Assembly (NCBI RefSeq): GCF_008802355.1
Contig: NZ_VZRA01000001.1
Location: 1,420,525 to 1,484,524, forward strand
Source: Oryzomonas sagensis
GTDB taxonomy: Bacteria > Desulfobacterota > Desulfuromonadia > Geobacterales > Pseudopelobacteraceae
Reading direction: 5' to 3'
Length of the DNA: 64,000 nucleotides
In this document: positions 13,343 through 21,667 of the stretch, piece after piece
Layout of the letters: each line of letters begins with the position of its first letter
How positions within the stretch are numbered: the stretch's first letter is position 1
Program-made: the position numbers and the translations under genes
The notes under the pieces: model-generated
Seen by the model: the letters and a program-made list of their open reading frames with translations, nothing else
Told to the model about the DNA's origin: nothing
Databases searched by the model: none

Positions 13343-13427
13343 TCAGCGGTGCTGTCAGGGACAGGGCGCTGCGCGTATGGCGCGGGAGGGGGCCCGTTTG
13401 CGTCCTTGGCGGCCATGGAGATAATGC

Positions 13428-13459
13428 TTGCTTTTTTATTCTGTTACTAATATAGTAAC
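13428..13459 (+). promoter_or_regulatory. Rrf2 gene promoter with palindromic operator
   Basis: TTGCTT (13428-13433), a 17-base spacer and TATAGT (13451-13456). A palindrome, GTTACTA-ATA-TAGTAAC (13443-13459), covers the -10 box. The predicted RNA start falls at or next to the ATG at 13463, so the message would be leaderless. The palindrome is a good candidate for autoregulation by the Rrf2 protein. Confidence 0.6.
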
Positions 13460-13462
13460 AAT

Positions 13463-13882
13463 ATGCCGAACAACACGCAATTCTCCATAGCGGTGCATAT
13501 CATGACCGGGCTCGGCTACAAGGACGGTGCGGACATGACCTCCAGCAGCCTGGCGAGGAGTGTTAATACGTGCCCCAGTTTTGTTCGGCGGGTTCTTTCC
13601 AAATTGTCCAAGGCGGGGCTGGTTCATACGACTACCGGCAAGGCGGGGACCTGTACGCTGGCCAAAAAAGCGAGCGAGATATCGTTGTTTGATATTTACG
13701 AGGCGGTGGATGCGCCGAAAGCCTTTTCAATCCATGGCTATGACGTCCAAAAACCATGCCCCGTGAGTTGTAATATCAAGGCTGCCCTGGAGAGGGTCTT
13801 GGAAAAGACGCAACTGTCGGTTGAGGAGAGTCTGAAGAGCATTACGCTTGAAGAGGTCGTTTCAGACGTCAAGAGAGTGTGA
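13463..13882 (+). CDS. Rrf2-family transcriptional regulator
   Basis: A 139-residue Rrf2 regulator. The winged helix spans residues about 10-70 (FSIAVHIMTGLG, SSLARSVNTCPSFVRRVLSKLSKAG), followed by the dimerisation helix region. Cysteines occur at N-T-C-P and later in PCPVSCNIK, but the three-cysteine spacing of IscR is absent, so cluster binding is not predicted. There is no ribosome site before this ATG; the promoter geometry suggests a leaderless message. A later in-frame Met would cut into the conserved first helix, so this start is preferred. Probably autoregulated through the palindrome at 13443-13459. Confidence 0.85.
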   Translation: MPNNTQFSIAVHIMTGLGYKDGADMTSSSLARSVNTCPSFVRRVLSKLSKAGLVHTTTGKAGTCTLAKKASEISLFDIYEAVDAPKAFSIHGYDVQKPCPVSCNIKAALERVLEKTQLSVEESLKSITLEEVVSDVKRV

Positions 13883-13956
13883 TGCTTGGGGGCATGACTT
13901 GTGACGCTGAAGGTAGCGATTTTTGAAGATTCACTATAGCTTGGTTTGCCGCAACG

Positions 13957-14031
13957 AGCTTTCCCCTCTTCGCGGTGGCCAACGGTCACCGGTGAAGGTA
14001 AGCTGGGAATCAAGCCTGCAGGCTTGATTCC
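13957..14031 (+). promoter_or_regulatory. structured leader ahead of the 20-residue peptide
   Basis: Two hairpins precede a strong ribosome site. The first (13957-14004) pairs AGCTT/AAGCT, CTTC/GAAG and an 8-bp CGGTGGCC/GGTCACCG tip with an AAC loop. The second is a perfect 26-base palindrome (14006-14031, 13-bp arms). No T-run follows either, so neither is a terminator. It looks like a structured 5' leader or a riboswitch-like element of unknown type. Confidence 0.45.
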
Positions 14032-14057
14032 AAATCCGAGAGAAAGGAGGAACGGTC

Positions 14058-14120
14058 ATGTTTACCGAACGCTTCAGGATTCGTCCCGTATCGCATTGTA
14101 AAGAAGGTTGCATGCGTTAG
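14058..14120 (+). CDS. 20-residue candidate leader peptide
   Basis: ATG at 14058 lies eight bases after AGAAAGGAGG, one of the best ribosome sites in the window, and TAG ends at 14120. The peptide starts MFTERFRIRPVSHC and ends KEGCMR. It has five arginines, two cysteines and one histidine. It sits between a structured leader and a hairpin pair that ends in a strong terminator, which is the layout of a transcription attenuator. I recognise no family. It may be a regulatory peptide rather than a functional protein. Confidence 0.5.
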   Translation: MFTERFRIRPVSHCKEGCMR

Positions 14121-14184
14121 CCTGCCGCTCTCCGCGGCAGGCGCCTTCCGATCCCCCTGCCGTTCCTGCGGCAGGGGGATTTTT
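14121..14184 (+). terminator. attenuator-like hairpin pair ending in a terminator
   Basis: Hairpin A (14121-14128 with 14134-14141, 8 bp) begins on the base after the peptide stop codon. Hairpin B (14151-14162 with 14169-14180, 12 bp) is followed by TTTT and is a strong terminator. The 3' arm of A (CGGCAGG) can instead pair with the 5' arm of B (CCTGCCG), so A and an antiterminator are mutually exclusive. Confidence 0.65.
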
Positions 14185-14249
14185 CGTCCGGCAACGGGCA
14201 CCACGTTTCAGTGGGAAGGTGCCTCTGAGGAGCACTCTCCTCGTGACGG

Positions 14250-14597
14250 CTACTTCACAATCGGCCTGCCCAACTCCTTGGCCGCGTTCTCCACGGTCCC
14301 CAGGTTGATGATGTCCTCATAGCCCGCCTTTTTCAGCACATCGAAGGCAAGGGCGGTTCTGCGGCCGGTGCGGCAATAGAGATAGATTCTGGTCCTTTTA
14401 TCCCCTGCCACCGTACCGATGCTTTCCCCGATCCGCTCGTGGGGGAGCAGCCGCGCCCCTTCCACATGCCCCGTATTCCATTCCGCTTCGGTCCTGACGT
14501 CGATAACCACGGATTCCCTGCCGGCACCAAAGGCTGTTGCGACGTAAAGCGCCAGCACGAACGTCAGGTACATGAACATGGTTTTTGCCATTTTCAT
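14250..14597 (-). CDS. exported rhodanese-like sulfurtransferase domain protein
   Basis: A 115-residue single rhodanese domain behind a signal peptide (MKMAKTMFMYLTFVLALYVA, cleaved near AFGAG). The active-site loop is YLYCRTGRRTA, with the nucleophilic Cys; VIDVRTEAEWNTGHVEGA is the N-terminal signature. Periplasmic rhodaneses shuttle sulfane sulfur or act in redox maturation; the acceptor is unknown. The ATG at 14597 is chosen because AAGGAGG lies 11 bases upstream. Convergent with, and antisense to readthrough from, the attenuator-like unit at 14058-14184. Confidence 0.88.
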   Translation of the reverse strand: MKMAKTMFMYLTFVLALYVATAFGAGRESVVIDVRTEAEWNTGHVEGARLLPHERIGESIGTVAGDKRTRIYLYCRTGRRTALAFDVLKKAGYEDIINLGTVENAAKELGRPIVK

Positions 14598-14772
14598 TGT
14601 ACGATTCACCTCCTTAATCCGCTCTGATAGTCGTTTGCACCCTGTAAACCACTGTAGCCACAAAAGACCGGATAATTCAAGAGGCTCAGGAAAACGTTAA
14701 ACAGGGGGCTCTATCCAGACGGCAAATGGAGTATACTTTAAGTATGAATGAATGCCGGTGAGGAGTTCAGCC

Positions 14773-21417: not shown

Positions 21418-21483
21418 AAATACCTGGATGAAAGTTGCTATCCGGCTCCGGCCCCTCGTTCCACGGAGGTCCCAAAAGCATCG

Positions 21484-21652
21484 GCATGGCAGGTTTCCTG
21501 GCTTGGGGATCATTCCTCTGCCGCGCCTTCCCAGGTTTCCCCAGTGGCGTTCTGCGGCATCGGTCCCCCCTTACAGTTGCGGGACAGCGAGGGAGTTGCA
21601 CCCTCTTCCCTTTTAACCGCGCTGATCACGAGCGCGGCACCAGACCGGTTGA
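21484..21652 (-). promoter_or_regulatory. cobalamin riboswitch
   Basis: Read on the minus strand, this segment has the conserved B12-aptamer blocks in order: GGTGCC, TTAAAAGGGAA, GGTGCAACTCC, GCTGTCCCGCAACTGTAA, CACTGGG and the B12-box-like AAGCCAGGAAACCTGCC near the 3' end. It lies upstream of cobU with a terminator hairpin between. It is expected to shut off cobU-cobT-bzaF-PPC-cobS-cobC when adenosylcobamide is plentiful. Confidence 0.95.
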
Positions 21653-21667
21653 TAAACAGTTGCGGAT

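Follow-up and report, generated by a model that had tools for sequence, protein, structure and literature searches.

Leader-peptide attenuators of the trp and erm types share an order of parts: a Shine-Dalgarno (SD) site, a short open reading frame (ORF), a hairpin, and a terminator. CruR (Bp2923, DUF2946), a copper-responsive upstream ORF, is presented in the available part of its description as a protein of 145 residues, predicted to be exported, that contains CXXC and RAPP motifs, is encoded by the first gene of its operon and is linked to Rho; its action is modeled as an arrest in which the nascent chain matters (PMC9426467).

The unit described here lies in a window of 64,000 nucleotides from Oryzomonas sagensis. 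With moderate confidence, and from sequence comparison, we read it as belonging to a dispersed mini-gene family in which the peptide, or a ribosome paused by peptide and RNA structure, would act in trans, the window copy being a genus-specific and Rrf2-linked representative.

Organization and fold of the window unit

Table 1. Features of the unit and its immediate surroundings, numbered along the window.
Feature	Position	Strand	Basis or remark
Inverted repeat TGTTACTA-ATA-TAGTAACA, just 5′ of the Rrf2 start codon	13442..13460	+	Read from sequence
Rrf2-family regulator gene, 5′ of the unit	13463..13882	+	PF02082, E 4.7e-31
5′ hairpin, 48 bases	13957..14004	+	Folding; helices 1 to 4
Perfect palindrome/hairpin, 26 bases, ahead of the SD	14006..14031	+	Helix 5
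SD AAAGGAGG	14043..14050	+	Read from sequence
ORF, 20 codons, MFTERFRIRPVSHCKEGCMR	14058..14120, stop TAG 14118-14120	+	Conserved core
Post-ORF hairpin GCCTGCCGC/GCGGCAGGC	14120..14142	+	First base is the final stop-codon base
Intrinsic terminator	stem 14151-14180, T's to 14184	+	Folding; genus-copy alignment
Rhodanese gene	14250-14597	-	PF00581

Every part listed in the first-pass annotation (hairpin, palindrome, SD, ORF, hairpin, and terminator) is present in the sequence and its predicted fold, with corrections of detail. The peptide contains four Arg and one Lys instead of the five Arg reported, and the post-ORF hairpin, said to start on the base after the stop codon, already includes the final G of the TAG. 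The predicted fold of the 234-nt region has -109.6 kcal/mol; 200 dinucleotide-shuffled sequences average -80.8 ± 4.5 kcal/mol (z -6.39), and none matches its stability.

The named structure was scored on an alignment of four genus copies (the window, L018, L019, and L020), in which 95.6% of cells are paired and 7 of the 51 pairs have changed on both sides; neither the paired fraction nor the double-change count is attained by any of 500 shuffles. The 48-base hairpin accounts for four double-sided changes, with helix 1 paired in just 75% of cells, while the 26-base palindrome is paired in 100% of cells and carries two such changes. The SD is identical across the four copies, and relatives carry GAAAGGAG-type sites. 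The post-ORF hairpin is invariant within the genus, so the evidence for its covariation comes from the wider set of relatives.

A dispersed peptide family

By sequence similarity, the window peptide is a member of a dispersed family with the core RFRIRPVSHCKEGC, and its copy belongs to the form termed type A below. A DNA search of 39 relatives matched 14 genomes, and the first 10 distinct peptides recovered share an identical core. At the protein level, 132 of 141 genomes and all 29 genera of the order are matched, with one to four matches per genome, at a cut-off of E ≤ 1 per genome that includes some genomes matched by a diverged 65–70% form only. The comparison across Geobacterales that the first-pass annotation had called for finds the peptide and the stems strongly conserved. 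Class-wide, matches at E ≤ 0.01 were obtained in 102 of 195 genomes, eight of them outside the order, and across the phylum the type A query matches 23 of 297 genomes at E ≤ 0.05, chance matches included. A scan of one-per-species genomes returned 92 stretches, 80 of which were kept, mostly from Geobacter, Geobacteraceae, Desulfuromonadales/-aceae, and Deltaproteobacteria. Another copy lies elsewhere in the window genome, at C1:535486 (L052/L227). A paralogous form, MWTNFYMIRPVTHCKEGC / MWTTIYMLRPVTRCKEGC, occurs at separate loci in the same order (L229, L232, L234, and L236).

Related peptides are also carried by three Patescibacteria contigs from the same one-per-species scan (Parcubacteria or Moraniibacteriota; L100, L136, and L138), where SD, ORF, hairpin, and terminator are all present and the hairpin sequences differ. 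All three have a pseudouridine synthase gene (PF00849) approximately 125–172 nt behind the first Cys codon, for which the nearest NCBIfam model in L136 is RluF, below its cut-off. This shared neighbor argues against misbinning.

The comparisons that follow use 91 type A copies, including the three from Patescibacteria, and 29 type B copies, leaving out one false match (L228), one locus at a contig edge (L108), and duplicates. Across 64 distinct 14-codon type A cores, pS is 0.653, pN is 0.071, and pN/pS is 0.108; the corresponding type B value of 0.312 derives from a set with mis-anchored rows and is set aside. The low type A ratio indicates that the peptide itself is what is kept and that, as judged from codon substitutions, purifying selection on it is strong. 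All 64 cores use TGC for the last Cys, whereas 17 have TGT for the other Cys; the uniform TGC hints at an additional constraint at the RNA level.

Type B and phage forms

A second form, type B, combines the peptide MKRFMVPRVAHCSEGCP with a conserved RNA motif and is found in other Desulfobacterota; MKRFMVPRVAHCSEGCPSRSWA and its relatives, recovered from the phylum search, exemplify it. The type B query matches 52 of 395 genomes of the phylum at E ≤ 0.1, the weakest matches probably arising by chance. The motif, GUCCYGGGCANGACNNNAAACUGCCC, lies 3′ of the peptide. Its S2 stem covaries (paired fraction 0.945 versus 0.878; 0 of 2000 shuffles as high). The crossing GUC:GAC stem, S1, is nearly invariant (0.966 versus 0.944; 6 of 2000 shuffles as high) and has one compensated pair (L223). 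Because S1 is almost invariant, the type B pseudoknot is put forward as a proposal only.

Exact matches to the motif number 16, spread over 13 of 247 genomes of the phylum, and the reversed control gives none among the matches listed. The peptide is encoded at the same spacing at 13 of the 16 places. The other three (L321, L322, and L323, in three genomes of one genus) have an SD without the conserved peptide and are possibly RNA-only or decayed type B copies. Promoter matches precede 9 of 28 type B copies (null 2.5%; one of the 29 rows, without an assigned start, is omitted), and a strong terminator follows 9 of 29. By these counts, type B looks less autonomous than type A.

Forms of 16 residues, such as MKRFMIPRTAHCGNGC and MKRYMIPRVANCCRGS, occur at 29 places in IMG/VR contigs. 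When IMG/VR was scanned with the type A alignment, no viral contig matched, and tblastn against plasmids and annotated phages returned no match, a weak negative given queries of 20–22 residues. A PHROGs comparison covered fifteen genes neighboring the phage loci, 12 of them downstream and 3 upstream. Seven downstream genes on seven contigs match head/packaging families: the terminase large subunit in L263, L275, L239, and L241, and the head maturation protease in L265, L269, and L254. The neighbor in L248 matches a family of unknown function, plus a weaker endolysin match, and seven of the 15 genes have no PHROGs match. Terminase or head-protease genes therefore make up 7 of the 8 nameable neighbors, at distances of 54–785 nt.

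Some viral contigs carry a structured RNA 3′ of the ORF. In L298, L299, and L262, a branched RNA with a long stem and inner hairpins is predicted after the ORF, its main helix starting at +12 (counted as defined below); L298, L299, and L290, which shares its contig with L262, have no Rfam match at the gathering threshold. In the phage forms L267, L271, and L281, an in-frame TGA directly follows the conserved Cys and is itself followed by Lys, Gly, or Ala codons; these phages may decode TGA as a residue.

Position of the stem relative to the last Cys codon

With +1 set at the start of the final conserved Cys/His codon (14109 in the window), the post-ORF hairpin of the window begins at +12. The best stem of the type A copies starts at +12 in 79 of 91 and at +11 in six; those of the three Patescibacteria copies start at +10, +12, and +12. 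The stop codon, by comparison, begins at +10 (67 copies), +22 (18), +25 (2), +4 (2), or +61 or none found (2). The arms of the type A stem pair at 0.953 versus 0.822 when arms are swapped among loci, with a maximum of 0.865 in 2000 swaps, over 52 distinct arm pairs. In type B, the first G of the motif falls at +12 and a C at +14 in 29 of 29 copies. The best simple stem called by the same finder starts at +16/+17 in 23 of 29, with only the conserved GUCC at +12; a shared offset is accordingly clear in type A but no more than suggestive in type B.

An offset of +12 would place the structure at the mRNA entry of a ribosome that has the last conserved Cys codon in its P site. Since the stem stays at +12 despite a moving stop codon, its position suggests ribosome pausing in type A. 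The constant spacing may partly reflect inheritance with few indels, and that possibility bears on a plainer account, in which the locus is an ordinary micro-protein gene whose released peptide functions and whose hairpin merely protects the RNA 3′ end without any pause. Strong selection on the peptide, promoter and terminator matches, and neighbors that vary among the loci listed all agree with such a gene; the type A stem, fixed while the stop moves, is left unexplained by it, although few indels could account for this. We judge the plainer account unlikely, while granting it a real share of the probability.

Transcription signals and the MacA-like neighbor

A sigma-70-like promoter precedes 81 of the 91 type A copies versus 4.1% of mononucleotide shuffles, a call requiring a score of at least 9 of 12 and a -10 element that begins 42–73 nt ahead of the ATG, most commonly 57. 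Fifty copies show TTGAC[ATG]-N16-TAnnnT, usually TTGACA-N16-TAAGAT. The match is missing in the remaining 10, including all window-type copies (0 of 4). A terminator-like site is present in 91 of 91 type A relatives versus 31 of 455 dinucleotide shuffles. For the window, the strong terminator of the first-pass annotation is borne out by its stem and T's and by these relatives, but not by the site scan of 13380-14700, which returned two terminator-like sites versus 1.7 ± 1.2 in shuffles and places the terminator alone at chance level. These signals suggest that type A relatives are mostly autonomous transcription units.

Of 133 stretches, duplicates counted, 61 have a gene for an HlyD/MacA-like protein behind the unit on the same strand, as do 52 of 80 one-per-species loci; loci at contig ends are included in both counts. 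In L227, Pfam assigns HlyD domains and an ABC ATPase to the first two genes behind the unit, and the closest NCBIfam models for this operon are MacA and MacB, both below cut-offs. A promoter of its own, behind or overlapping the terminator, is found for the MacA-like gene in 36 of 54 loci versus 1.8% of shuffles (score ≥ 9; 7 of the 61 loci left out); a TGn ahead of the -10 adds one point to this score, and certain of the best-scoring sites differ from the conserved TATGAT. The string TGnTAnnnT lies ahead of the gene in 43 of 55 loci (6 of 61 left out), a count made with no control. In L091, L103, L161, and L164, the MacA-like start lies only a short way behind the terminator and the TTGACA of the apparent promoter overlaps it, suggesting a near-leaderless MacA-like mRNA.

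This arrangement bears on attenuation, which the first-pass annotation had raised for the window: a ribosome on the leader ORF would pick terminator or antiterminator and so control an antisense RNA in the window or, in the relatives, a MacAB-like pump. The frequent same-strand MacA-like neighbor fits such a role, as does the short ORF with SD before a terminator, its translation being predicted. The first-pass annotation had assigned complementarity with the 5′ arm of the terminator to the 48-base hairpin; the complementarity is confirmed for the post-ORF hairpin, whose 3′ arm is predicted to pair there at -15.3 to -15.9 kcal/mol in the window-type copies (-15.3 kcal/mol in the window). Over the 91 type A loci, however, the same pairing is no better between a locus's own arms than between swapped ones (-8.87 versus -8.85 kcal/mol, P 0.45), so no locus-specific antiterminator appears among them. 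This comparison and the MacA-like gene's own promoter make attenuation unlikely, and directly behind the window unit there is, as the first-pass annotation had stated, no plus-strand gene that could depend on it. The model also draws on the type A string RFRIR, which recalls R-X-R, a motif that stalls ribosomes carrying a macrolide; none of the type B or phage peptides examined contains R-X-R. Altogether, we regard attenuation as improbable.

Two sensing roles were considered as well. Macrolide sensing through R-X-R, suggested by RFRIR beside MacA/MacB-like genes, was rejected because the phage and type B peptides examined lack that motif. Metal sensing through HCxxGC is weakened by relatives that have His, Ser, or Ala in place of the final Cys.

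Genomic setting of the window copy

The Rrf2 gene lies directly upstream in all four genus copies, the protein being 91–98% identical in the three others. The inverted repeat ahead of it is the same in L018 and has one change each in L019 and L020; from its position, it is likely the Rrf2 operator/promoter region. A promoter scan of 13380-14700 found none for the window unit and none for the Rrf2 gene either, which makes the silence weak. In the simplest reading, the window copy is probably a duplicate that now ends the Rrf2 transcript as its final cistron. Between the Rrf2 gene and the unit, however, the site scan found a weak terminator-like site (13905-13918), which speaks against such co-transcription in the window strain. 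The two 5′ hairpins possibly set a processed 5′ end of the window transcript.

A duplicate without its own promoter match might be a functionless relic, particularly as the second copy in the same genome (L227) retains promoter and MacA-like neighbor. Against decay, peptide, SD, stems, and terminator are intact in four genus members and the 5′ hairpins have acquired compensatory changes, leaving a relic very unlikely.

The minus-strand rhodanese gene of the first-pass annotation is present, and its convergent layout, found in the window and at two further genus copies, would suit a cis-antisense regulator with peptide translation as the switch, as the first-pass annotation had proposed. The terminator precedes the rhodanese gene, and alignment identity among the genus copies declines beyond the terminator. 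The gene is missing at the fourth genus copy, and within 133 stretches (±5 kb), where L088 is the same place as L018, neither the Rrf2 nor the rhodanese protein was found beyond the genus copies. This distribution argues against antisense control, which we consider extremely unlikely. Farther along, an ORF at 14752/14773 has a homologue in two of the three other genus stretches and no family above cut-off in a profile library search.

The suggested link to cysteine or sulfur does not generalize. L025, a type A locus near a TusA-domain gene and a gene for an AIR-synthase C-terminal domain, which we take to be SelD-like, is the sole hint of sulfur/selenium chemistry among the loci listed.

A proposed mechanism

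The mini-gene reading favored at the outset builds on the features that comparative analysis establishes: purifying selection, covarying stems, stem position, terminator, and promoter matches in the relatives and at the MacA-like neighbor. Each mini-gene would comprise a short transcript with a strong SD, an ORF of 16–25 codons, and an RNA structure near the last conserved Cys codon, which in type A would be the stem at +12 followed by an intrinsic terminator and in type B the conserved motif at +12. The window would hold a second, genus-specific copy without a recognized promoter, transcribed probably as the last cistron of a perhaps self-regulated Rrf2 gene and ending at the terminator. The peptide would be made and would be the selected product. 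A ribosome whose P site has reached the last conserved Cys codon would run into the structure and be slowed or arrested by it. Finally, because neighbors differ between the loci listed, the peptide, or the paused ribosome-RNA complex, would act in trans.

A broader extension is tentative, and we think it rather doubtful: that these loci form a class of mini-mRNAs in which a nascent peptide of 16–25 residues and an RNA structure at about +12 jointly hold the ribosome, put to use in trans by Desulfobacterota, Patescibacteria, and phages. What is unusual is a peptide of this length that is strongly conserved order-wide and recurs in other lineages and phage contigs, its main form having an RNA stem at fixed distance. 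If the ribosome pauses, the family offers a compact natural system for joint action of nascent peptide and mRNA structure; if the peptide is an effector, it adds a widespread micro-protein.

Comparison with known families and systems

Profile searches of the peptides against Pfam, NCBIfam, and PHROGs gave no significant match, one phage peptide reaching E 0.085 in PHROGs, and the peptide strings have no match in the literature text searched. At the gathering threshold, Rfam identifies only a cobalamin riboswitch in the whole window, located elsewhere at 21471-21659 (-) with 131 bits. Only three sub-threshold matches appear for 13900-14250 at E ≤ 5, likewise three for 20 relatives at E ≤ 1, and only two tRNAs for 14 viral-contig loci.

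The unit resembles trp and erm attenuators in its order of SD, short ORF, hairpin, and terminator; it differs in that no dependent downstream gene, locus-specific antiterminator, or single-codon run is seen. With CruR, so far as the available part of its description goes (PMC9426467), it shares a Cys-containing ORF, which in CruR is regulatory; the ORF here has 16–25 residues, and most type A copies have their own promoter match and an intrinsic terminator. Membership in DUF2946 is not indicated, as the peptides have no Pfam match and RAPP is absent from the sequences examined. RAPP-type arrest peptides, in the accessible portion of their description (PMC10951233), similarly have conserved residues near the nascent-chain end, a likeness from which we infer a possible pause. 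SecM shares this trait. The peptides examined here lack RAPP and are far too short for a secretion domain.

The dual-function small RNA envisaged in the first-pass annotation finds partial support: a selected short ORF lies inside a structured, short, terminated RNA, with an own promoter match in the type A relatives (81 of 91) and in none of the four window-type copies. SgrS/SgrT and VcdRP/VcdP, as represented in the excerpts at hand, are likewise short terminated transcripts with a small ORF, and action in trans may be common to them and the present family. Relative to both, the peptide here is shorter and conserved over families and phyla, and the type A stem is tied to a codon.
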